Below are positions 27,953-55,210 of a stretch of 64,000 nt of DNA, piece by piece. The stretch's first letter is position 1. Each line of letters begins with the position of its first letter. This DNA is from Desulfurococcales archaeon. GTDB lineage: Archaea > Thermoproteota > Thermoprotei_A > Sulfolobales > Acidilobaceae. The position numbers and the translations under genes are program-made. The notes below the pieces were generated by a model. That model searched no databases. It saw only the letters and a list, made by a program, of their open reading frames with translations, and had not been told where the DNA came from. The DNA lies in contig WAOT01000001.1 of NCBI GenBank assembly GCA_015521115.1, forward strand, positions 1-64,000, written 5' to 3'.

Positions 27953-28419
27953 AGGACGCCCTAGCAGGGCTCCCCCACTATGAGGTCAGGCCCGCAGGCT
28001 ACCCAGGGGTTCTTGTAGCGTATACCAGAGAGCCACCCGGTAGGGTGGCAGAGGAGATCTTATCCTGGGAGTACGCATACATCTCCTCCATCATCATAGC
28101 TGGAGAATGCACCCGGCCAGATGAGGTAGTCGGGGTGGTCAGGGTAGAGATAGAGAGGTGCCCAAGGAGGAGTATAGACTTGAGGCTCAAACTCAGGGGG
28201 CCCTGCAGGGGGTTGAAGGCTGAGATCGAGTCCCTCCTCAGGGGGAGGGTTAGGAGGTCTAGAAGATCCCCGTACGGACTCGTAGTCGAATGCCTCCAAG
28301 ACCTAGCCGTGGCGGGCTGTGGGAGGGCTGTGACAAGGCCCTACGGGGTCAGGGTATACATGTTGTACTCCCCGGTCAGTGGAGCCCCACCACGACCGTC
28401 CCGAACCCGTTCGCCCTAG
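27856..28419 (+). CDS. THUMP-domain protein (Tan1-like)
   Basis: Up to 187 residues. After the start region the sequence VIATSKPGKGAWAREELEDAL and YPGVLVAYTREPPGRVAEEI gives the ferredoxin-like half, and SIDLRLKLRGPCRGLKAEIE plus GLVVECLQDLAVAG the THUMP half seen in Tan1 and other tRNA-binding proteins. A catalytic domain is absent, so it probably presents tRNA to a partner such as an acetyltransferase. The start is uncertain: GTG 27856 or GTG 27865, both inside nth. Its end converges on cas6 with a 44 bp overlap. Confidence 0.72.
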   Translation: MRGVPAERLLPLCPRVIATSKPGKGAWAREELEDALAGLPHYEVRPAGYPGVLVAYTREPPGRVAEEILSWEYAYISSIIIAGECTRPDEVVGVVRVEIERCPRRSIDLRLKLRGPCRGLKAEIESLLRGRVRRSRRSPYGLVVECLQDLAVAGCGRAVTRPYGVRVYMLYSPVSGAPPRPSRTRSP

Positions 28420-29245
28420 ACTCGCCTACGCCGGCGATCTCAGCTGTGAGGAGCACGTTCTTGACCATCTCGTCAACACCCCTCCTACCCCGCCTCGGGG
28501 GGTCGTAGATGTATGTGGCCTTCCCCATGAGGGCTGCTTCCCTCTTACCCTTGAAGGGGATCATGACGGGCCTCAGAGTTCTGAGGGTGTACCAGGTCTC
28601 AACGAGCCATCCCAGGCTGAGTGAGGCGGATAGCAGCGAGTCCTTTGTCAGGCTAAGACCACCCCTCACTAGCAGGTATGGGGCCATTAAGACCTCCACT
28701 GCTGACGGGGAGAACTTTGGGAGCCTTGTCGGCGCGAAAACATTAGATATGAGGGTGGGGGCCTTGAAGTATATTGTGACCCTGCTGAACCCGTCCCCAA
28801 ACTTCTCCCTCACACTCCCCGTTATGTCCCAGATGTTCTCGAGCTTCACCTTCACGTTTCTGTCAGCGAAGCGGAACATTAGGGGGGTTCTGAGCTCTTC
28901 CAGCCCCCGGGCGACCGCCCCGACAACCTGGGCTTCCCCACCGACGTGGAATACGTATTCGCCTCCAAGCTCTATAGACTCTAGGATCCACCTCTCCCCC
29001 TCCCTGTCATAGGTGTACATGGGGGAGGCGACGGTGCCGAGATCGTTCTCTCTAGGGCCTGGCTTGAAGAGTGGTGAGATGTGGAGCGGGTGGACTATGC
29101 CCCTCACACCGTGGAGGAGCCTGAGTTCACGGGCCATGGCGTAGACGATGGTCTTCGTTAGCCTCCCCGTATACTCGCTCAGCGGCCCGTCGGCCTCAAC
29201 TGATACTAGAACCCTTAGGGCTCTAAGCCTCTCTAGTGGATCCAA
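28376..29245 (-). CDS. cas6: Cas6 pre-crRNA endoribonuclease
   Basis: 289 residues. Cas6 cuts the CRISPR transcript within repeats to release crRNAs. The C-terminal glycine-rich loop GVGESRANGFGTVVVG is the family signature, preceded by a tandem ferredoxin-like layout; a histidine-containing first domain (IVHPLHISPLF, residues 50-60) may supply catalysis. It follows the CARF-HTH gene with a 23 bp overlap, so the two are co-expressed, divergent from the interference genes. It would be expected to process the 40.2 kb array. Whether it also handles the mini-array repeat is unknown. Confidence 0.88.
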   Translation of the reverse strand: MDPLERLRALRVLVSVEADGPLSEYTGRLTKTIVYAMARELRLLHGVRGIVHPLHISPLFKPGPRENDLGTVASPMYTYDREGERWILESIELGGEYVFHVGGEAQVVGAVARGLEELRTPLMFRFADRNVKVKLENIWDITGSVREKFGDGFSRVTIYFKAPTLISNVFAPTRLPKFSPSAVEVLMAPYLLVRGGLSLTKDSLLSASLSLGWLVETWYTLRTLRPVMIPFKGKREAALMGKATYIYDPPRRGRRGVDEMVKNVLLTAEIAGVGESRANGFGTVVVGLH

Positions 29246-29933
29246 TCTTCTCCACCATTATCCCATATAATATCTTCCCAGGGAAGGTTTTTATCACTTT
29301 ATTCCTCCTATGGACTATCAAGCCCTTCAACTCCAACTCCTTGAGGGCCTTATAGACCGACCTGCCAAGCCCCAGACCCTCCAGTAGGCCACCCCTGAGG
29401 GGCACCTCATCACTGGGCCAGCTATAGATCCTCAGGAAGAGCTCCCTCTGCCTCCTGGGCAGCCTGACACTCAAATAGCCCATTAGTGGGACAAGCCTCC
29501 ACTCCTCCCCCTCAACGCCCTGGACAAGGTAGACCTTGACCCTCCTCTCAGCCCATAACGCGAGCAGCACCTGGAACATGAGGGGAAGGAGGTAGCGGCT
29601 CCCCGTCACTCCGGAGACTACGACCCTACTACACCCCTTGGAGGCCTCCCGTAGCACCTTGTAGAGGCGTATGGAGGAGGCCACATCCCACGGCTCAACA
29701 ACGACCTCACGATAATCCGCGCCCAAGACCTCGGCGAGGGCCCTGAGGTATCCGAAGATCTCCCTCTTCACCTCAAACAGGCCGCTCACAGTGACCGAGA
29801 CAACACACGAAATGGGGCTGACAAGTGGGTGGGCTACGACGCCCCTCACAGTCTCGGCAGTAACGCCGACGGGCATAATAAGACAGCTACCCCCGGGCAC
29901 CCCGACACCCCAACCTAATACTTTGATGTTCAC
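29223..29933 (-). CDS. CARF-HTH transcriptional regulator (Csa3-like)
   Basis: 236 residues. The N-terminal Rossmann-like CARF domain includes VVVSGVTGSRYLLPLMFQVL, the ligand-loop region, after strands CVVSVTVSG and YREVVVEPWD. The C-terminal part RQRELFLRIYSWPSD, LGLGRSVYKALKELELKGLIVHRR is a winged helix. Csa3 proteins control adaptation or interference genes, some in response to cyclic oligoadenylates. The GTG start at 29933 lies inside a perfect inverted repeat (29928-29949), which suggests autoregulation and control of the divergent cas10d operon. Such regulators are better known from type I-A loci. Confidence 0.82.
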   Translation of the reverse strand: MNIKVLGWGVGVPGGSCLIMPVGVTAETVRGVVAHPLVSPISCVVSVTVSGLFEVKREIFGYLRALAEVLGADYREVVVEPWDVASSIRLYKVLREASKGCSRVVVSGVTGSRYLLPLMFQVLLALWAERRVKVYLVQGVEGEEWRLVPLMGYLSVRLPRRQRELFLRIYSWPSDEVPLRGGLLEGLGLGRSVYKALKELELKGLIVHRRNKVIKTFPGKILYGIMVEKIGSTREA

Positions 29934-30003: not shown

Positions 30004-31875
30004 ATGGTGGGATGCGTATTGACACCCGAGGAGAAGCTGAAGATCGCCTACACACTACTCCCACCACCACTATCAGCACTACCAGCAAAATACTGGGCGA
30101 GCATAAGCCTCCTACTCCACAGTTACAGCGTGGCGAGTACATTCGAAATATTCGTTAAAGGGTATGAGACATATACTAACTATGTCCCCTCGAGCACAGA
30201 GGCGTTTATAGTCGGTTTCCTCCACGATCTAGGGCAGAAGCTCAAGATCCGGGGCAAACACTCGGACGAGGCAGTCATATCCTGGGCTGAGGAGAGGCTC
30301 CAGCACTACGGGTTTACCCCGGGGGAGGCCCGGATCTACGCCAAATACCTCTACACAAACCCTGCAGAGACAAGATCAGATCCTCTATTCTCTAGAGAGG
30401 TGTGGACACTCTTATGGCTAGCCGATAGAATCCAAGGGGTGTCTAACCCAATTGATCTTGTATCGCTCCTCCATCAGGCAAGAAGGGATCTTAGCCTAGG
30501 ACTGAATCTCAAACTCATCAACATAACCCTGCCCCAACCGTTCCTAAGGACTTTGATAAGCAAGATGATATACGAAGAGCTCGTCGACTATGCTACCTCC
30601 AACCCAGTAATCCTCCTCCCAGTATCATCACCCATGGGTGTAGCAATCATAACAGATGACCCAACACTTAAGGTCACACTCTCATGGGACGACCTCAGAA
30701 AGGGCTTCCGCGGGAAAGGCCTCCTCACAGACACGGATGAGGTGAAGCTCGAGTGGAATATGCATTGCTGTGAGGACAAGAAGTGTGCTGAGAGGTGTGG
30801 AAAGAAGTCTAAGCCTGAGGAGTGTAAGAGGTATGGTTTCAGGAAGAGGGACTGCGAGAAGGGCTTCTACCCAGGCCAGAGGGGGAACTCTTACAAGATA
30901 ATCCTCAGATACTATGGGTTCAATAGGAAGGTCGAGGGCGATATTGTCCTCCCCAAAGATGTGGGGGGCATGTTCCAGGGCGTCGAGCTTGTGGGGGTAA
31001 AGTTCTTAGCCGGAAATAGTGTGTGCCCGATCTGTGGTGTCAAGACGCCTGTCGGCATGCCTGTGAACATACTGGGGTTCTTCAAAGATCTGACTATACA
31101 GCAGTGGGCGAGACGCCTCTATCCGGGGAACGTGAATAGGCTCATGCAGGAGGCTAAGACGTACGCTGTCGACCCCTTATGCCTTGGCGACGTGATAGTG
31201 AGGAGGACTCTGGGGACTGACGTGCTCCTCAGCCTCAGCCTCAGAACACTCGTCCCAGCACCGGTGCTGGAGGAGATCGGCTTCCTCTCCTGGGTCATAC
31301 TGAACAAGCTGGAGAGGGGAATACCGAGGTCTAGTAGTGTGAGCCGCCTGTTCTATGGTGAGGGCTGGGATAGGAGTCTGGGTGACGTGGTTAGGGGGTT
31401 CTCAACTTATAGCCGGGACGCGTTCTTCGTCTACGACATGTTCTCCACGAGCGTATACCTCCCCTATAGGAACCCTCTGAGAAGGCACCTAGACGAGTGG
31501 GTCAAAGATATCGTTACAGCAGGCGTCCTGACAGGTTGGGGTATATACCCGTTAACAGTCTCACACCTAGCTCCCAGCGTTCCACCCAACACCCTGCTCA
31601 CCTACTATAAGGGGAGGAAGCCTCTCTATGACATGCAGCCCTCCGACCCTAAGCTGGGCGTGTATACGCCCTACGTCTCAATGGTTATGGCGTCACTTGC
31701 CGAGTTGAACAGGAGGAAGGGAGAGGGGCAGCAGCTGCCTGCCTTCCTCGAGGTTCTAGATTACCCGCCTGAGCACTCCCCCGTCCTCTTGGAGTATTCT
31801 TCCCCGTCTCTTTACTCCGTCCTAGAATCCCTCAGGCTCCGTCTGTGGGGTGAGGTGGTTAGTGTTGGAGGATAA
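30004..31875 (+). CDS. cas10d: Cas10d (Csc3), type I-D large subunit with HD nuclease
   Basis: 623 residues. In type I-D the HD nuclease is on the large subunit instead of Cas3. Here FLHDLGQ (H74-D75) with a second His in GKHSDEA (H86) forms the HD site. A Cys cluster (C255-C284) and CPICG (341-345) are likely zinc-binding. I see no GGDD cyclase motif, as expected for Cas10d. The protein is shorter than the full-length Cas10d I know from cyanobacteria (about 970 residues), because the helical C-terminal portion appears as a separate gene directly after it. It works with Csc2, Csc1, Cas3' and Cas6-made crRNA. Confidence 0.87.
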   Translation: MVGCVLTPEEKLKIAYTLLPPPLSALPAKYWASISLLLHSYSVASTFEIFVKGYETYTNYVPSSTEAFIVGFLHDLGQKLKIRGKHSDEAVISWAEERLQHYGFTPGEARIYAKYLYTNPAETRSDPLFSREVWTLLWLADRIQGVSNPIDLVSLLHQARRDLSLGLNLKLINITLPQPFLRTLISKMIYEELVDYATSNPVILLPVSSPMGVAIITDDPTLKVTLSWDDLRKGFRGKGLLTDTDEVKLEWNMHCCEDKKCAERCGKKSKPEECKRYGFRKRDCEKGFYPGQRGNSYKIILRYYGFNRKVEGDIVLPKDVGGMFQGVELVGVKFLAGNSVCPICGVKTPVGMPVNILGFFKDLTIQQWARRLYPGNVNRLMQEAKTYAVDPLCLGDVIVRRTLGTDVLLSLSLRTLVPAPVLEEIGFLSWVILNKLERGIPRSSSVSRLFYGEGWDRSLGDVVRGFSTYSRDAFFVYDMFSTSVYLPYRNPLRRHLDEWVKDIVTAGVLTGWGIYPLTVSHLAPSVPPNTLLTYYKGRKPLYDMQPSDPKLGVYTPYVSMVMASLAELNRRKGEGQQLPAFLEVLDYPPEHSPVLLEYSSPSLYSVLESLRLRLWGEVVSVGG

Positions 31876-32320
31876 GGAAGATCCCTGTAAGTATAGCCCG
31901 GAGAGGGGAGTAGACTATTACGCAGCAGGCCTGGCCGGTCTGCTGCGTGTTATCGTGGGATCGGGACAGAGGTCTACGCATGCCTATGTTAAGGATGTTA
32001 GGAAGGCTCTGGAGACCCTTGTCTTCACAGTGTGGGACAAGTATGAGGAGTATCTGGACGTCATAGCTGAGAGCAACATACCCGACTCCCTCAGGAGTCC
32101 TAAGGCGAGAGAGTGCTTCCGCGACCTTCTCGTGGGCCTGCTGAGGAGGTTCCGGGAGACTGCTGATAGCGTGCCTATAGGTGCTCGGATCAGGCTGATG
32201 AACATGGTTATATCCGCTATAGCTGAGATGGCCCGCTATAATCTTCCTCCTACGGGTGTTATGATTAAAAATTATGTTTTTTCCCGTAAGGATGAGTCTG
32301 AGGGTGGAGGTGGTAAGTAG
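31862..32320 (+). CDS. cas11d: Small helical protein, candidate stand-alone Cas11d
   Basis: About 152 residues, all predicted alpha-helical (YYAAGLAGLLRVIVGSG, AYVKDVRKALETLVFTVWDK, FRDLLVGLLRRFRETADS, RIRLMNMVISAIAEMARYN). It sits exactly where the C-terminal domain of Cas10d would continue, in the +1 frame, overlapping cas10d by a few codons. In other type I-D systems the small subunit Cas11d is made by internal initiation within cas10d; here it has its own ribosome binding site, GAGGTGGTT at 31852-31860, before GTG 31862 and TTG 31865. A frameshifted split of cas10d is the alternative. Function inferred from position and helicity. Confidence 0.68.
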   Translation: MLEDKEDPCKYSPERGVDYYAAGLAGLLRVIVGSGQRSTHAYVKDVRKALETLVFTVWDKYEEYLDVIAESNIPDSLRSPKARECFRDLLVGLLRRFRETADSVPIGARIRLMNMVISAIAEMARYNLPPTGVMIKNYVFSRKDESEGGGGK

Positions 32321-33384
32321 TGGGTGTGGAGTCCCTCTTAGAGGCGGTTAAGCCCTGCCTCCGTAGGGTTGGAGAGGAGGGCAGGCTCTTCCCTACGGGG
32401 AAGAGGATCGAGGTAGTGTTCACCGTCACAGCAGCTAACTTCTTGCTCCTAAGAACCGAGGGGCCGGGGGACATAAACGAGGCGCTACTCCCGGAGTCAG
32501 GACTTAACGTGCCCGTGATACAGCCCCAGAAGCTGATGGCGGTGGTGAGGAGGAGACTACTCCACGCGCTGAGAATGCACAGGGACTCAGGGGCTGACCT
32601 AACCGAGTTCATCAGACAGGCGGCTGAGCTAGGATTCACAAAGGCCGAGGAGCACCTCCGGTCAAGGTGGAACTGTACTATCCAGCCACCTCTGGCCGAT
32701 ACTGGGGAGAAGACGACCGACATAGGAATGGACGGCTACTGCCCCGCATGTACGATCTTCGGCGTAGCCCTCACACAAGCACAGTACAAGAAGGCTAGCG
32801 GGGACATGAGTGTGGGTGTAAAGACGAGGGTTCACTTCGACCCCGCCTTCGCAACCACACGAGCTGTGCAACCTGAGACCCATAACAAGGTAACAGAGGG
32901 TGTAGTGTCGACGACTGGTGGAGCCCTCTTCAGCGACATCCATGTTATGCCCGGCACCGTGTTCATTGGCAGGGTGGTGCTACACGACGTCACATACCCT
33001 GAGCTACTAGCCGTCCTCTACTCGCTGGCTAGCATCGAGGCTGTAGGCGGTAGGAGCGGGGTCTACGGGACCGTGAAAGTAGAGCTACTAGGTGCCCGCT
33101 GCGGCGACTACTCCACCACTACAGCCCTAGAGCTGGCCGATGAGGCCGCGGGTAAGGGGCTTACAAAGCCTTCAAGCGTTAAAGGGTTCCTACTGGAGAA
33201 ACTCAGTAAACTGGGCTTCACTGCTGTCAGCAATGAGGAGATCCTCGATGCCGTAAGGCCGGAGGAGGCTGACGGGCTATTCATGGATCTCTGGAGGAGC
33301 AGCATAGACTTCGTAAAACAGCTGGACAAGCTGATCGCAGAGCTGAGAGGTGGTGGGAAGGGTAGACGTGGGAAGAAGAAGTAG
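32320..33384 (+). CDS. csc2: Csc2 (Cas7d), type I-D backbone subunit
   Basis: 354 residues. Cas7-family proteins coat the crRNA spacer. Features: TGKRIEVVFTVTAANFLLLR near the start, the Cys motif GYCPACTIFGVAL, VKTRVHFDPAFATTR, and PGTVFIGRVVLHDVTYPELL followed by the conserved GGRSGVYGTVKVEL. A Lys/Arg-rich tail (GGGKGRRGKKK) ends it. GTG 32320 shares a base with the previous stop and follows GGTGGAGGTGG. Confidence 0.92.
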   Translation: MGVESLLEAVKPCLRRVGEEGRLFPTGKRIEVVFTVTAANFLLLRTEGPGDINEALLPESGLNVPVIQPQKLMAVVRRRLLHALRMHRDSGADLTEFIRQAAELGFTKAEEHLRSRWNCTIQPPLADTGEKTTDIGMDGYCPACTIFGVALTQAQYKKASGDMSVGVKTRVHFDPAFATTRAVQPETHNKVTEGVVSTTGGALFSDIHVMPGTVFIGRVVLHDVTYPELLAVLYSLASIEAVGGRSGVYGTVKVELLGARCGDYSTTTALELADEAAGKGLTKPSSVKGFLLEKLSKLGFTAVSNEEILDAVRPEEADGLFMDLWRSSIDFVKQLDKLIAELRGGGKGRRGKKK

Positions 33385-33412: not shown

Positions 33413-34117
33413 ATGCCCTATTTCTATCACGCCGATATCAGGGTTGACGGGCTCTTATGGTATCACACGCGAGCCCTACCATCAACCCAGTTCTACATCA
33501 GCCAGCCCTACCCAGTAATCCACAACTACGGCCTAACCCTAGCCCTCGCAGGCTTCATAGTAGACCCGGACATGGGCTACGCTTCCCTCTTCAACCTGAC
33601 ACGCTACAAGAGGCCCTTAGAGCTCTACTACCGCTATGGCGTCTACGCTTACCCTCCCCTAGTCGTTAAGGCCCTGCTGGGAGAGGTCTTAATGGCTGCG
33701 ATGAATGAGGGTATAGCCACTCTTCGAGGCAGGTCTAGGCTTGCATACCCCCTATTCACGAAGAACACGATACTCATGCCAGGCTCCCAGCTTAGGACGC
33801 TCATCATAGTATCAGAGGATCGAGCAGAAGACGTGGGGCTCCCCAGGAAACTGGTCGTCAGGATCGGTGCTAAAAGGGGCGGCGTGCTACGTCTCCGGCT
33901 GCAACGCGTCGAGCCGGAATTCGTTGAAAACGCAGTGGTCAGCCATCCCTTTAACCTTCTCGACAGTGTCAGGGTCGACGAGTACACAGTGATACTGCCA
34001 CACCCCGCCGGCGACATCGGGGTGTTTGGTAGAGCCTCAGAGGCTCTTGAGTATGAGATAAGAGTTGGTCGTACAAGGAGAGTCAAGGTGACCGTGCCTG
34101 TTCTCGAGGGAATGTAA
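33413..34117 (+). CDS. csc1: Csc1 (Cas5d), type I-D crRNA-handle subunit
   Basis: About 234 residues. MPYFYHADIRVDGLLWYHTR opens a Cas5-type ferredoxin fold; then LPSTQFYISQPYPVIHNYGL, a middle region LYYRYGVYAYPP, and VVSHPFNLLDSVRVDEYTVI near the end match Csc1. It binds the 5' handle of the crRNA. ATG 33413 has GGAGGG at 33398-33403; longer in-frame versions would overlap csc2. The cas3 ATG follows its stop directly. Confidence 0.88.
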   Translation: MPYFYHADIRVDGLLWYHTRALPSTQFYISQPYPVIHNYGLTLALAGFIVDPDMGYASLFNLTRYKRPLELYYRYGVYAYPPLVVKALLGEVLMAAMNEGIATLRGRSRLAYPLFTKNTILMPGSQLRTLIIVSEDRAEDVGLPRKLVVRIGAKRGGVLRLRLQRVEPEFVENAVVSHPFNLLDSVRVDEYTVILPHPAGDIGVFGRASEALEYEIRVGRTRRVKVTVPVLEGM

Positions 34118-36244
34118 ATGGGGGGAGAGTGGAAGACATTCCATGTACCCGCCTTTTCCATACCCTACTCCAACCTTTATCTTACAGGTACCCTGAGGCT
34201 GAACAGTTTCCAGGCTAGGATCTACCACTCCCTGAAGAAGTCCGAAAACATAATCCTCACAGCTCCGACCGGTTCAGGGAAGACTCTAACGTTACTCCTC
34301 AACACAGAGCACAGCATATATCCGGGTAAAGGAGCCCTCGGCTTTGTCGCCCTCTACCCCAATAACGTTCTATTGGCCAACCAGATGAACACGGTTGAAG
34401 ACCTGGTCATGAACCATTTCGGCGGCGAGCTCGTATCAAGCACAAGCCTGTGCGACGGGAATATTTCAGAGAGTAATAGGAGATCTGTCAGGTGCATTGA
34501 GCCGCTCCGGGTCTACAAGGTCAATAAGGACATGGTTAGGGGGGCATCAAACCCCGTATGGCCTGACATTAACTATATCGCTTTGCTAGCACTATCCGGT
34601 AGGAGCATAATCTCGCCTGACGGCACCCCCAAAGGGGAAGTTGTCTACCGGCTAGCGGAGCACGTCTTAAATTTCCGGAGAGAGGGCGTGTATGTGATAG
34701 TATTCGCAACACCTGACACGTATCTTCTAATTAAGAGCGGTGCATACAGGAATCTAGAGGTTGTGGGTAAAGCGTTACATAATATCCTCCTAGCCCGTGC
34801 GAGGGGGGAGAAGTCTAAGGGCCTAGAGAATATCCTGAGGGTCACTGGCGTAGTGGCGAGGGAGAGGGTTAGCAGGCTGGTGGGCGTCTCCGAGAGGCTC
34901 CTCTCCCTCCCCCTCTTCGTAGACGAGTTCCACCTCTATAACCCTTACGAGGTTGACGCCCTCTATGCCGCCTTAGAACTGTTCAAGAGCCTACCAGACA
35001 CTGAGAACTACCCGGTAGTCTTCTCCTCCGCAACTCCGGCCGATGATATTCTAGAAGACCTCGGTTTTAAGGGCAGGTACGAGCGCGTGGACGCACAGAC
35101 TGTCAGAGGGTTGAAGGGTTTCGAGGTCAGGGGTGACACACTCATAACTGTGATCCCGGTTAACGTAAGAGGCAGAGGATTAGCAGCCTACTACGCCGCG
35201 GCCTCTCATCTACCAGACATAGTCCTTGAGGATCTCCTGGCAGAGATTAAGAGCGTCAAGAGAGGGCGCGCCCTTATAATACTTGAGAGGCTCTGGATGG
35301 TGGCCTATCTTGTCCAGAAGCTTGTGGATGAGGATATCAATGTTGAATGTATAGCTTCGATAGTGCCTGAAGGGGTCTGCAGGGAGGGAGCCCCTATCAT
35401 AGTAGGGAGCGAAGCCACGACCCAGGGGGTAAACTTGGGGAGGGTGATCTTAGGCGTTACTGCTGGAGTGTCTAGTGAGGACGTAGTGCAAAGAATTGGG
35501 AGGGTTGGGAGGAGGGGTGTTGACTCGCACATCTACCTAGTCCTCCCTGAGAGGGCGCTCGAGGGCGCTCCATCACCTGAGGAGACAGACTACACGGGAC
35601 TTGTGGAGTGGGTCAGGAGAGCATACCTCAATTATCCTAAGAGGAGGAGGGACATCTCACATCTTCTCCCAGAGAGGTATAGGGACGCCCGGAGGAAACT
35701 GATCACCACACTAGGCATTGTATCTACCGCTAGAGTCTCTGGCATGACGGGGTTACTCTCGAAGATCAAGCTGTCAGCTGACGAGGCGAGAAACCTATTA
35801 GAGTCTGTAGTGGGCCCCGCAGGTACAATGTCTAGGCTGATCCTCTTTAGGAGAACTGGCTTCCAGGTAAACTATGTTGTAGAGGGCTCTGGGGTCGAGG
35901 GTAGTACTAGCATAGGCCTGATCACGAGAAACTTCAGGGTAGCTGGTAGGGATAGCATGGGCCGCTTGGTAATAAGGCTTGAGAGGGACAGGAAGGAGAT
36001 CAATATTGTTGTCCACGGAGACCCCGAGACTTTTAGGTGGAGGTTCGTGGATCTCAAGATCCTCCTAGAACTCCTACAAGGCACAATGTTCGTGGGAGAG
36101 AATGTCGAGGTCAACCCTCCGGGCGGCTCGTTAGCATATGTGGTAAAAGCTGACGAAAAGCTCGCCGACTATCTGTCCCTGAGCGGAGAGGGTGCTAAGA
36201 TCGTCTCAGGGGGTGGCGAAACATATGTCGCCCTCTTTATATGA
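34118..36244 (+). CDS. cas3: Cas3' helicase of the type I-D system
   Basis: 708 residues. Superfamily 2 helicase motifs: TAPTGSGKT (48-56), motif II DEFH (269-272), SSATPAD (303-309), TTQGVNLGRVILG (444-456) and QRIGRVGRRG (458-467). There is no HD nuclease domain, which fits subtype I-D where the HD is in Cas10d. It unwinds target DNA after recognition by the effector complex. ATG 34118 abuts the csc1 stop. Confidence 0.92.
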   Translation: MGGEWKTFHVPAFSIPYSNLYLTGTLRLNSFQARIYHSLKKSENIILTAPTGSGKTLTLLLNTEHSIYPGKGALGFVALYPNNVLLANQMNTVEDLVMNHFGGELVSSTSLCDGNISESNRRSVRCIEPLRVYKVNKDMVRGASNPVWPDINYIALLALSGRSIISPDGTPKGEVVYRLAEHVLNFRREGVYVIVFATPDTYLLIKSGAYRNLEVVGKALHNILLARARGEKSKGLENILRVTGVVARERVSRLVGVSERLLSLPLFVDEFHLYNPYEVDALYAALELFKSLPDTENYPVVFSSATPADDILEDLGFKGRYERVDAQTVRGLKGFEVRGDTLITVIPVNVRGRGLAAYYAAASHLPDIVLEDLLAEIKSVKRGRALIILERLWMVAYLVQKLVDEDINVECIASIVPEGVCREGAPIIVGSEATTQGVNLGRVILGVTAGVSSEDVVQRIGRVGRRGVDSHIYLVLPERALEGAPSPEETDYTGLVEWVRRAYLNYPKRRRDISHLLPERYRDARRKLITTLGIVSTARVSGMTGLLSKIKLSADEARNLLESVVGPAGTMSRLILFRRTGFQVNYVVEGSGVEGSTSIGLITRNFRVAGRDSMGRLVIRLERDRKEINIVVHGDPETFRWRFVDLKILLELLQGTMFVGENVEVNPPGGSLAYVVKADEKLADYLSLSGEGAKIVSGGGETYVALFI

Positions 36245-36306: not shown

Positions 36307-36588
36307 GTGATTGTGATTGTCGCCTATGATATCGGGGAGGAGGAGCGGAGAGGTAAATTGCGGCGCTACCTCAGACGGCTGGGGCTGGCTATGGTTAACC
36401 GCTCCGTCTACGCAGGCCCCGGGACGTCGAGTACTGCTAAGCTCATCGCCGAGCGTGCCAGAGACCTTGTTAAGGACGGCGATTCGGTGTTCATTATCGT
36501 TGTTAGAGAGGACGAGTACCAGCGGGCACTCGTATTTGACGGCACGGATTTCTACGTCGTGCAGGAGAGAAGGTTCGAGGTACTCTAG
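36307..36588 (+). CDS. cas2: Cas2 adaptation protein
   Basis: 93 residues with the ferredoxin-like Cas2 fold: MIVIVAYDIGEEERRGKLRR contains the first-strand aspartate (D8), followed by YLRRLGLAMVNRSVYAGPG and SVFIIVVREDEYQRALVFDG. It pairs with Cas1 to integrate spacers. GTG 36307 follows GAGGTG at 36293-36298. The order cas2-cas4-cas1 is less common than cas4-cas1-cas2. Confidence 0.93.
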   Translation: MIVIVAYDIGEEERRGKLRRYLRRLGLAMVNRSVYAGPGTSSTAKLIAERARDLVKDGDSVFIIVVREDEYQRALVFDGTDFYVVQERRFEVL

Positions 36589-36589
36589 G

Positions 36590-37213
36590 ATGAACCTCCT
36601 AGGGTGGGCCATGCTCTGCCCAGCCGCCTCCCACCTCCTCTGGCACGGCTCGACCCCGAGGGAGACCCCTGAGTACCCCACCGCCCGGGAGCTCTCAGAG
36701 GCCCACAGCAAGCTCCTAGACCGTGTGGAGGAAGTGTTCTTTAATATACGTGGATGCTTGGACGTGAAGGCTAGGTTTAGAGAGGATCGGGATGCCGAGC
36801 AGACTATGCTTACAATATCGATAGCTAAGCGTGTGGACGATAATAAGACCGTTAATAAGACCGTGAGCCTCTGCGCCCGGGGCAGGGGAGACCTGATAGT
36901 GGTAGCTAGGGCTCGGCTGAGGGGGGAGTGGAGGCCTATAGTGTTCTATGTTGAAGCCGCTACCCGAGTTCACATTGCTAAGCCCCCTCAGACCCTGCTC
37001 AAAATGATAGCTGTCTACCAAAAGTATAGGCTCCCCACGGCCGGGCTCATCGTCTCCCCCGAGAAGATCGGGTATAGAGCCCTAAGACCCGACGATATCC
37101 TACAGGTAGAGAAGCTCCTCCTAAGGGAGAAGATCCCACCCGGCTTTAAAGGGCACCCAAACATGTGTAGCCTGTGCGAGCTCTCCCACGACTGTCCATG
37201 GCGTGGAATATAA
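36590..37213 (+). CDS. cas4: Cas4-family protein with a degenerate nuclease motif
   Basis: 207 residues starting at ATG 36590, one base after the cas2 stop; a longer frame overlapping cas2 is not needed. The iron-sulfur cysteines are all there: C10 near the N-terminus and C193, C196, C202 (MCSLCELSHDCPW). Of the RecB-like nuclease core, GRGD (98-101) and Q134 are visible, but the expected E-x-K reads VEAAT (E122, A124), so the catalytic lysine is missing at its usual place. Cas4 normally trims prespacers and helps choose the PAM. Activity of this one is doubtful or uses another lysine. Confidence 0.85.
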   Translation: MNLLGWAMLCPAASHLLWHGSTPRETPEYPTARELSEAHSKLLDRVEEVFFNIRGCLDVKARFREDRDAEQTMLTISIAKRVDDNKTVNKTVSLCARGRGDLIVVARARLRGEWRPIVFYVEAATRVHIAKPPQTLLKMIAVYQKYRLPTAGLIVSPEKIGYRALRPDDILQVEKLLLREKIPPGFKGHPNMCSLCELSHDCPWRGI

Positions 37214-37240: not shown

Positions 37241-38206
37241 TTGAGAATACTCTTAGTCAGGGGCCCGGCAGTCCTAGGCCTTAAGGGGAGGAGCACGATT
37301 GTCGTCGAGACTAGGAGTGGGAGGTTTGAGAGGGCCATACGTGACGTCGAGGCGGTACTCATCGTGGGAAGGAGAGTCACTGTGAGCTCCGCTCTCCTAC
37401 CCGTTCTCGCACAACACAATGTACCCGTCGCCTTCCACTCTATGGACACTATAGCAATAGTTATGAACCCCGTGAGAATGCAGTACAACAACTACCGCAA
37501 ACTCCAGTACACCCTACCAAAGGTGAAGGCTCTAGAAATAGCTGCGATCTATATAGATGCGAAGCTCCAGGGCATGCATAATGTAGCTAAATACTACGGC
37601 GTGAACACGCCCCCGCCGAGACCTCCTCCGCCACCACTAGACGAGGAGGAGTATGAAAACCTCATAAGGACGTGGGAAGCGGCGGAGTCACAGCGCCTGT
37701 GGGGCTCAATAATAAGTGCCCTAAAGCCAGGGGTGCTCAGAGAGCTAAACAGCAGATACGGCTTCCACGGCCGAAGGCCAAGAAGTCCGGATCCCTTCAA
37801 CAAGACTCTAAGCCTAATGTACGCAGTCCTCTACTCCCTAGCGACTAGGGCTCTCATATCAGCAGGGCTAGACCCCACATACGGGTTCCTCCACAGGACA
37901 AGATACAGTACACCCCTAACATTCGATTACGTAGAGATGTTCAAACCTGTAGCAATCCACGCCACCATAAACATGATCAACAGTGACGGCCTACCCCACA
38001 TAGACAAAACAGGAAACCTGACAAGAACAGACACACAGAGAGCCTTCAAACACCTCTACAGCCTCCTAACACTGAGGAACAGGAGGACAGGGAAAACACC
38101 ATACCACCAGATAACAACAAAAGCGTTCTGCCTGGCAAGACACCTAGAAGGAAGGTGTACAAGGAGAAAACTAATAATAATATGGAACAGGAAGAACTAC
38201 AAGTGA
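37241..38206 (+). CDS. cas1: Cas1 integrase
   Basis: 321 residues. The metal-binding residues are in place: a glutamate in RTWEAAESQRLW (E146 or E149), His in TYGFLHRTRY (H218) and Glu in TFDYVEMFKP (E232). N-terminal beta domain ARNDs aside, the linker between domains carries an unusual proline run (PPPRPPPPPL, about 124-133). Cas1 with Cas2 inserts new spacers. TTG 37241 starts it, 27 bp after cas4. Immediately after its TGA the same frame stays open for another 55 codons with a TnpB-tail-like sequence. Confidence 0.94.
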   Translation: MRILLVRGPAVLGLKGRSTIVVETRSGRFERAIRDVEAVLIVGRRVTVSSALLPVLAQHNVPVAFHSMDTIAIVMNPVRMQYNNYRKLQYTLPKVKALEIAAIYIDAKLQGMHNVAKYYGVNTPPPRPPPPPLDEEEYENLIRTWEAAESQRLWGSIISALKPGVLRELNSRYGFHGRRPRSPDPFNKTLSLMYAVLYSLATRALISAGLDPTYGFLHRTRYSTPLTFDYVEMFKPVAIHATINMINSDGLPHIDKTGNLTRTDTQRAFKHLYSLLTLRNRRTGKTPYHQITTKAFCLARHLEGRCTRRKLIIIWNRKNYK

Positions 38207-40146: not shown

Positions 40147-40180
40147 AACAGTGGTATACACAAGCCACCCACATCCGCTA

Positions 40181-42581
40181 TTCTAAGTTTTGCTTGTTTC
40201 AAACCTGCTACGCCCAAGTCTATACTCCATCTAACGCTCTTAGTTTTGCTTGTTTTAAACCTATTTATATTAATGCGTTCAGTATATAAGTTAATCCTCT
40301 TAGTTTTGCTTGTTTTGAACACCAAAGTGTATAACGCAACAACACACACATGGGACTCTTAGTTTTGCTTGTTTTGAACCGTCCATCGGTCACGTGTTAG
40401 CCGTGCTATCTTGTACCGGCTTAGCACCCACTCTTAGTTTTGCTTGTTTTGAACTGCCGGCCCCTGGCACGTCGGCCGTCTTAGTGCCGGTCTCCCCTCT
40501 TAGTTTTGCTTGTTTTGAACCACTATATGACCGACTTGGGCACCCATCTCCTCTTCCTCTTAGTTTTGCTTGTTTTGAACTTACAACATTAGCTGGCAGA
40601 GGATAGACAGCCTCTCTTAGTTTTGCTTGTTTTGAACTGAATGCTAAGTCTAAAACTCCCAACGGCTCTTCCTCTTAGTTTTGCTTGTTTTGAACCTAGG
40701 CTACTCGAGGCGTGTAGGGGTAGGGGGTGCTCTTAGTTTTGCTTGTTTTGAACGGACTAGCAAGAGCGAGCTGATACGGGCGGCGTTGCTCTTAGTTTTG
40801 CTTGTTTTGAACACGAAGGTGGTCTTCCCACTCTGCATATAGCCTCTTAGTTTTGCTTGTTTTAAACCGGGAAAATCCGGAACACTATTGACCCTGTCTC
40901 TTAGTTTTGCTTGTTTTGAACGGCCACTACTTGGCGTTGCCTTCGGCATTCTCCTATCTCTTAGTTTTGCTTGTTTTGAACGGGCCCTTGCATAATGAGC
41001 ACACGATAAAGCGGCTCTTAGTTTTGCTTGTTTTGAACTTGGTAATGACAATGTAACACTCAGGCTAATAGTCTCTTAGTTTTGCTTGTTTTGAACCCAA
41101 TCCTTGATGTATCGGTCATAAATCCAAGGCTCTCTTAGTTTTGCTTGTTTTGAACTTTCTGGTGGGATGAGGAGGAATCTGAGGACTCTTAGTTTTGCTT
41201 GTTTTGAACTTATTGTCTAGCTGCTTAACACCAACGTAATATACTCTCTTAGTTTTGCTTGTTTTGAACCTCTCGCTATCGTCTTTTATCTCATGATGAG
41301 CTCTTAGTTTTGCTTGTTTTGAACCAAGCAAGTATGCGTTAGTTTACAAGAGTGCTAACTCTTAGTTTTGCTTGTTTTGAACACCTGAGATTCAACCGGG
41401 CTGTGGTTGAGGACATACTTGCCAATGCCTCTTAGTTTTGCTTGTTTTGAACAGGGGGATTAAGCGGGTGGTGCAGGTCGAGCTCGACTCTTAGTTTTGC
41501 TTGTTTTGAACACAACAGCTCCCAGTTAGAGAACACATGGGCCACGCCTCTTAGTTTTGCTTGTTTTGAACATGGAGGAGGCTGACGGGTCTAAGACCGC
41601 GAAGGCTCTTAGTTTTGCTTGTTTTGAACTGTTTCCCCCACGAGAACACTCTCATTAAATTTACTCTTAGTTTTGCTTGTTTTGAACGGGAACCCTCTAC
41701 TTCGCGAGCGATGCCGACGCCATAAGCTCTTAGTTTTGCTTGTTTTGAACATGGAACCGTAGAGATAACGAAGACCGATGCTAACTCTTAGTTTTGCTTG
41801 TTTTGAACCGGTTCGTTAAGCGTGGACTAGCCCGTATATGCGCTCTTAGTTTTGCTTGTTTTGAACTTATCTTGTATCCGTGTATCGTGTAGGTGGCACT
41901 TGCTCTTAGTTTTGCTTGTTTTGAACTTCGGCCGGTTCATGGTATACGATAGCGGAGATAGGCTCTTAGTTTTGCTTGTTTTGAACCTTTACTATAGCAA
42001 TAGATTATATGGCCCAGTTGCTCTTAGTTTTGCTTGTTTTGAACTAGCACTACTATACCTAATGCATCGTTATCAATGTGATATCAACTCTTAGTTTTGC
42101 TTGTTTTGAACTAGTATAGTCTCTATACCTGCGTGTATCAGTTCTCCTCTTAGTTTTGCTTGTTTTGAACCTAGACTACCCGCCGTAGACGCCAACGAGC
42201 TTAAGACTCTTAGTTTTGCTTGTTTTGAACCTGAATTCGGCTTCACTCCCGGGGGAGCACTTGTACTCTTAGTTTTGCTTGTTTTGAACTTTGGCTAACG
42301 TTTTAAGCGGTTGGTTTAAAGGTCTCTTAGTTTTGCTTGTTTTGAACCAAGACGTGAGGAGGTACTGTCTCGATGTCAGAAGCTCTTAGTTTTGCTTGTT
42401 TTGAACCCGCCCGAAGAGTGGCCACCCAACCCGCCCCCAGGCTCTTAGTTTTGCTTGTTTTGAACTCACTAAACATTGAGACCGAGCCTATACCCCTTGA
42501 CTCTTAGTTTTGCTTGTTTTGAACAGGAAAAGAAGAGATGGGGGGAAGCTAAGCAGACTCTTAGTTTTGCTTGTTTTGAAC
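40181..42581 (-). CRISPR. CRISPR array, 41 repeats, 40 spacers
   Basis: Repeats are 24 bp; in plus orientation they begin CTCTTAGTTTTG and end CTTGTTTTGAAC. I count 41 copies from 40181-40204 to 42558-42581, with spacers mostly 30-45 bp (one about 51). The leftmost copy has four differences and the second one (TTTTAAAC); a copy at 40844 also ends TTTTAAAC; all copies on the right are identical. Degeneration at the left and the AT-rich promoter-bearing flank on the right put the leader at the right, so transcription should run leftward with repeat GTTCAAAACAAG...CTAAGAG. Against this, the plus-strand end GAAC resembles common handle sequences. It belongs to the type I-D cas genes 2 kb away. 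Confidence 0.97.
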
Positions 42582-42820
42582 TGCCTGGTTCTGTGTGTTT
42601 CTATGTCTTCGCCTGGCTTATAAACCCTTAGATCCCAGTACGAACACTATGGTAGGCAATTGTTTGCACCACCACCCGGTTTCGTACAAAAACATAAATA
42701 CCCCAAACACCCCCCATCAGCAACAACGGAAAAGAACACCACAAAACAACAACCCAATTCGTACAAAAACATATAAGGAACCCCTAATTTAAAAACGTTT
42801 CGGTTGCGGTTTGGTTCAAT
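42582..42820 (-). promoter_or_regulatory. Probable CRISPR leader with duplicated motif
   Basis: An AT-rich, A-run-rich region without a gene next to the uniform end of the array. The 16-bp sequence TTCGTACAAAAACATA occurs twice, at 42681-42696 and 42758-42773. On the minus strand each copy joins a TATA-like element (CCTTATATG and TATTTATG) to TTTTTGTACGAA, so the leader may carry a duplicated promoter or integration-anchoring site. Confidence 0.6.

Positions 42821-55096: not shown

Positions 55097-55210
<114 letters not shown>

Follow-up and report, generated by a model that had tools for sequence, protein, structure and literature searches.

How the small subunit of a type I-D CRISPR effector is encoded is the question raised by a 64,000-nt stretch of a Desulfurococcales archaeon contig (WAOT01000001.1, positions 1–64,000; the window). 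Type I-D has been stated to have no cas11 gene, Cas11d being an internal product (PMC7689449), and its internal expression appears, by a published account, to be broadly conserved in all of its groups (PMC10212523). A sequence-only reading of the window had proposed an early end to Cas10d followed by a distinct small-subunit cistron, either hard-wired or a natural split of cas10d. The genes and features of the locus are the following:

28376–29245, − strand: cas6 (PADLOC Cas6, 1.1e-23)
29223–29933, − strand: divergent CARF/Csa3-like regulator gene (PADLOC CARF3, 2.1e-07; Csa3, 4.2e-04)
30004–31875, + strand: cas10d, short form, 623 aa, with HD nuclease, zinc finger, palm and thumb and without a C-terminal Cas11 domain
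31852–31857, + strand: Shine-Dalgarno GAGGTG, within the cas10d 3′ end, assigned from sequence to the small subunit; 4-nt spacing to GTG 31862
31862–32320, + strand: cas11d, separate small-subunit gene, 152 aa, assignment supported by homologues, AF2 model, fold match and profile match
32320–33384, + strand: csc2 (cas7d), backbone subunit (Pfam Csc2, 2.9e-51)
33413–34117, + strand: csc1 (cas5d; PADLOC Cas5d, 9.8e-57), open from GTG 33350 with a likely start at ATG 33413
34118–36244, + strand: cas3′ helicase (PADLOC Cas3d, 1.7e-26)
36307–36588, + strand: cas2 (PADLOC Cas2, 1e-34)
36590–37213, + strand: cas4, likely start ATG 36590 in the longer ORF 36317–37213, identified by a homologous frame at the same position in relatives
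37241–38206, + strand: cas1 (PADLOC Cas1, 5.3e-40)
40167–42600 (end approximate), strand not assigned: CRISPR array, 41-copy repeat family, repeat on the + strand CTCTTAGTTTTGCTTGTTTTGAAC

This gene set is that of subtype I-D. Cas10d carries an N-terminal HD domain in non-permuted order and matches PADLOC Cas10_Id over residues 10–607 (3.8e-106); its HD residues H39, H74-D75 and D141 are invariant, in that order, across 13 members. Both csc1 and csc2 accompany a separate cas3′ helicase, and cas1, cas2 and cas4 (assigned only through its counterpart in relatives, with no family-library match behind it) are joined by a CRISPR array downstream of the operon. The regulator and cas6 run divergently on the − strand relative to the + strand operon, whose frames are intact throughout. 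Departure from the literature description is seen in a trait that is not a classification criterion, namely that the small subunit here has its own frame, start and stop. From gene content, structural models and profile comparison, we consider this very probably to be a type I-D Cascade operon that looks intact and encodes its large and small subunits as two distinct cistrons, which run in one orientation and are probably coupled in translation.

The boundary between the two genes is as the sequence-only reading had described it. Cas10d ends at 623 residues with the stop codon TAA 31873–31875, and the small gene lies in the +1 frame relative to cas10d, overlapping it by 14 nt. The small frame is open from GTG 31850, with GTG 31862 as its best start, and its stop, TAG 32318–32320, overlaps the csc2 start by 1 nt. 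The ribosome binding site of its own that had been claimed for the small gene is also present, at GAGGTG.

The AF2 model of the window Cas10d (pLDDT 87) matches the type I-D structures 6thh (Foldseek, 1.3e-07) and 7sba (I-D Cascade, 1.4e-04). In this model the last palm strand is followed by ~88 residues of short helices, a thumb-sized stretch, and then by the stop. S. islandicus Cas10d is 847 aa long, with its thumb at 624–719 and its Cas11 domain at 720–847 (PMC7689449). By this modeling, the window Cas10d stops where the Cas11 domain would begin, and the PADLOC Cas10_Id profile (616 positions) fits the short form. Two cysteine features of the protein were also observed. Its zinc finger (window 31024–31185) reads CPIC...DPLC in the window and nearest relatives as compared to CPIC...CPLC elsewhere, a change of one Cys to Asp, and a Cys-rich insert (window 30765–30860; CCEDKKCAERC...C...C), found in most close relatives, is a possible extra metal site.

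The small protein was modeled by AlphaFold as an all-helical, six-helix bundle of 152 aa (pLDDT 89), in agreement with the all-helical protein that had been proposed and with the small, all-helical character of Cas11. Its top Foldseek match in the PDB is the type I-D Cas10d crystal structure 6yes (probability 1.00, TMq 0.61 over 126 columns), with E = 0.22 despite that probability and with no position on 6yes given in the Foldseek output; the second match is Cmr5, the type III-B Cas11 (probability 0.21). Profiles were compared with hhalign, in local mode for small-subunit versus fused comparisons and in global mode for small versus small and Halococcus comparisons. A profile of 18 separate small subunits aligned with one of 14 fused Cas10d proteins at P = 6.8e-5 over columns 819–921 of 951, which is the C-terminal Cas11 region, and the pooled profile scored 42.4 as compared to a maximum of 15.2 among 100 column-shuffled profiles. 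Against single fused Cas10d subgroups the small subunits matched more weakly (P 0.005–0.2), and against Sulfolobaceae fused Cas10d alone the match was placed elsewhere than the Cas11 region, so it is the pooled profiles that carry the homology claim. When the large and small proteins were joined for analysis, their alignment extended along the greater part of the fused archaeal profile (99.2% probability, 700 columns). At the residue level, the window motif STHAYVKDVRKALETL aligns with STHAILLPLSKALEQIL of Synechocystis Cas10d, and a STHA....KALE motif is common to both proteins.

Could the small protein be some other CRISPR accessory, such as a regulator or an unrelated helical protein? Single-sequence searches of Pfam, NCBIfam, PADLOC and the PDB returned no meaningful family, PADLOC gave no small-subunit profile matching it, and the fold and profile statistics are modest. 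Yet its two best fold matches are Cas10d and Cmr5, its profile match at the Cas10d C-terminus outscores all shuffles, its gene keeps a constant position between cas10d and csc2, and the short Cas10d is without exactly that domain, which makes an unrelated accessory quite unlikely. Matches of the small-protein profile to Sec23 and CEP104 were weak and unrelated in context, and were rejected. Identification of the gene product as the Cas11d small subunit, with the function this would imply, is supported by the top fold match and by pooled-profile homology to the C-terminal Cas11 domain of the large subunit, the outcome sought when alignment and structure prediction were suggested as checks.

The Cas10d sequence retrieved no related loci from the genome contigs. 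A profile from a nine-sequence Csc2 alignment found eight archaeal loci and none in viral contigs; tblastn of the L028 Csc2 against plasmids gave no matches, and Synechocystis Csc2 replaced L028 Csc2 as query. In 14 other loci, csc2 is immediately preceded by a homologue of the small gene. Twelve of these have the order cas10d–small gene–csc2 (13 loci counting the window), with cas10d of 589–669 aa where complete; cas10d is cut by the contig end in L054 and L011, and the latter, very close to L010, was left out of alignments and tree. In the other two (L012 and L072), the small gene adjoins csc2 upstream and cas10d falls beyond the contig end. Loci with the separate gene span families f1, f5, f8, f19 and f33, and named records among them include Acidilobaceae, Desulfurococcales, Fervidicoccus and Thermofilum. 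The two-gene layout is conserved across a clade, and the distinct cistron that had been read from the window alone holds for its relatives.

The junctions between cas10d and the small gene range from a 29-nt overlap to a 13-nt gap, occur in relative frames 0, 1 and 2, and mostly carry a Shine-Dalgarno-like motif. In the locus from the genus Thermofilum (L028:6405-8732), the large-subunit TAG and the small-subunit GTG adjoin directly in one frame, with a single stop codon separating the two genes. This variation bears on two explanations that would leave the system a fused one. In the first, a sequencing or assembly error, or decay, has broken a normal fused cas10d by one frameshift, as might be suspected in a 59-contig draft genome whose two frames differ by +1. 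The layout recurs, however, in 12 other loci that were assembled independently and differ in overlap, gap and frame, and the small gene has its own Shine-Dalgarno and start within an operon of intact frames; such an artefact is vanishingly improbable. In the second, programmed frameshifting or readthrough still yields some fused Cas10d-Cas11d, giving a complex like that of fused systems. Overlaps of 1–29 nt in many members and the in-phase frames of L028, one TAG apart, would suit this explanation, but the gaps in L010 and L053 (13 and 4 nt) are out of frame and the relative frame varies among members, so that, on the junction data, we hold it to be very unlikely. Because the junctions vary across relatives of the same layout, sequencing error and a conserved programmed frameshift were both rejected, and separate cistrons are retained as the preferred explanation. 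Decayed type I-D remnants were seen as well (L056:5929-6261, L077 and L081), comprising a 110-aa cas10d fragment in G042 and a broken csc2 in G531 and G298.

Outside this clade both layouts occur. Fused Cas10d proteins of 817–1158 aa, without a separate small gene, are found in the Sulfolobaceae-type family (f11, named on the basis of the Sulfolobus acidocaldarius control and published work), in two further Thermoproteota, and in cyanobacteria, Chlorohelix and several haloarchaea. A second Thermoproteota lineage has its own small gene (148–215 aa, motif SKHSxMGPVGK) before csc2, at L069:2619-3065, L071:666-1127 and L073:8640-9287, and its large subunit, complete in two of these loci, has 838 or 914 aa. 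Its small subunits are related to the window family (hhalign P = 3.3e-05; 1.9e-04 in a separate comparison). Halococcus dombrowskii (NZ_CP095009; L095:1485-4420) resembles the window in having separate large and small genes, of 833 and 145 aa with an ATGA overlap and both annotated cas10d. Its small gene starts where the fused Halorussus and Halorubrum proteins carry an internal Met, and its product aligns with the fused haloarchaeal genes (P = 1.5e-43); hhalign detected no alignment of it with the window family. Unlike the window gene, the Halococcus split is nested inside a fused haloarchaeal group.

On a tree of Csc2 and Cas3′, which is unrooted and has some long branches, the 14 loci of the window clade group together with support of 100/100 and are sister to a fused clade containing Sulfolobaceae. 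At least three layout changes are needed on this tree. An AU test rejected a single clade of the two separate-gene Thermoproteota lineages, a grouping named post hoc on a tree with some long branches. The proposal of a natural split is well supported by sequence comparison for Halococcus only, which is nested among fused relatives. For the window clade, with the tree unrooted and some branches long, either a split or a later fusion in the sister clade would fit. A converse history is that the separate gene is older in Thermoproteota I-D, as in type III, and that the Sulfolobaceae clade fused it later and kept the internal start. Two Thermoproteota lineages with separate genes and similar small subunits (P = 3.3e-05, as above) flank the fused clade, in line with this order; yet the cyanobacterial and most examined haloarchaeal systems are fused, Halococcus demonstrates that splitting does occur, and on an unrooted tree either order takes three changes. 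We consider an older separate gene plausible but on balance improbable.

In each of the four fused Sulfolobaceae-type genes, an internal ATG lies 127–130 codons before the stop. The motif in front of it is GAGGTGA in two of the genes, AGGTG in a third and GGTG in the fourth; in L070 and L075, GGAGGTG precedes a start, at 146 and 152 codons. As the scan required a Shine-Dalgarno-like motif and covered the last 110–185 codons only, it is a consistency check and not a measured enrichment. In carrying a ribosome-binding motif where the Cas11 domain begins, the fused Sulfolobaceae-type genes resemble the window, whose small gene has a site of its own. Since they keep an internal ATG with such a motif, the same ribosome entry point appears, from these sequences, to serve both fused and separate layouts, with the upstream stop as the sole difference.

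In the mechanism we propose, termination of cas10d would be coupled to fresh initiation at GTG 31862, and ribosomes starting there would make free Cas11d; the stop codon ending the Cas10d frame near the common entry point would be what sets this layout apart from the fused genes. Free Cas11d copies would line the belly of the crRNA–Cas7d filament and hold the displaced DNA strand. As the window Cas10d is without a Cas11 domain, free Cas11d would also have to fill the first belly position, on the Cas10d thumb, and would then occupy all minor-filament positions, including the one taken by the Cas10d C-terminus in fused systems. The Synechocystis I-D complex is Cas10d1:Cas7d7:Cas5d1:Cas11d2 (PMC9123187). 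Here we predict three or more Cas11d copies for each Cas10d, all of them free, which would resemble type III complexes. A fully modular, type III-like minor filament, with the Sulfolobaceae gene having been fused later and having retained its internal ribosome site, is a tentative and rather doubtful extension of this mechanism. If that later fusion did take place, the “gene within a gene” would be a relic of an old gene boundary.

The type I-D Cascades of Synechocystis PCC 6803 (7SBA) and Saccharolobus islandicus (6THH/6YES) share with the window an HD-domain cas10d, csc2, csc1, cas3′ and a small subunit related to the Cas10d C-terminus. In both, however, Cas11d comes from an internal start and Cas10d has a Cas11 domain (PMC7689449, PMC9123187), and the window has neither. 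A separate gene for a small helical subunit is found, as here, for type III Cmr5/Csm2 and in types I-A and I-E, though these belong to another subtype and gene set and the fold similarity to Cmr5 is weak. The available portion of the 2025 classification makes no mention of a separate I-D small subunit (PMC12669027). Across the literature surveyed, a body that excluded the primary internal-Cas11d survey, Cas11d is described as an internal product only, and the archaeal gene may have been noticed before. Against the published “no cas11 gene” stands an archaeal clade with a separate I-D small-subunit gene.

With at least three layout changes and apparently one conserved entry point, the origin of nested small-subunit genes becomes testable by comparison. 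Transfer of I-D, I-B and I-C systems to new hosts is hampered in practice by the internal start. Because cas11d is a gene of its own, the large and small subunits can be altered and measured independently, and this natural I-D complex would allow either subunit to be deleted, titrated or expressed on its own with no need to mutate an internal start. Elsewhere in the window, positions 55097–55207 gave an Rfam tRNA match with no ARAGORN call and are probably an intron-containing tRNA gene.
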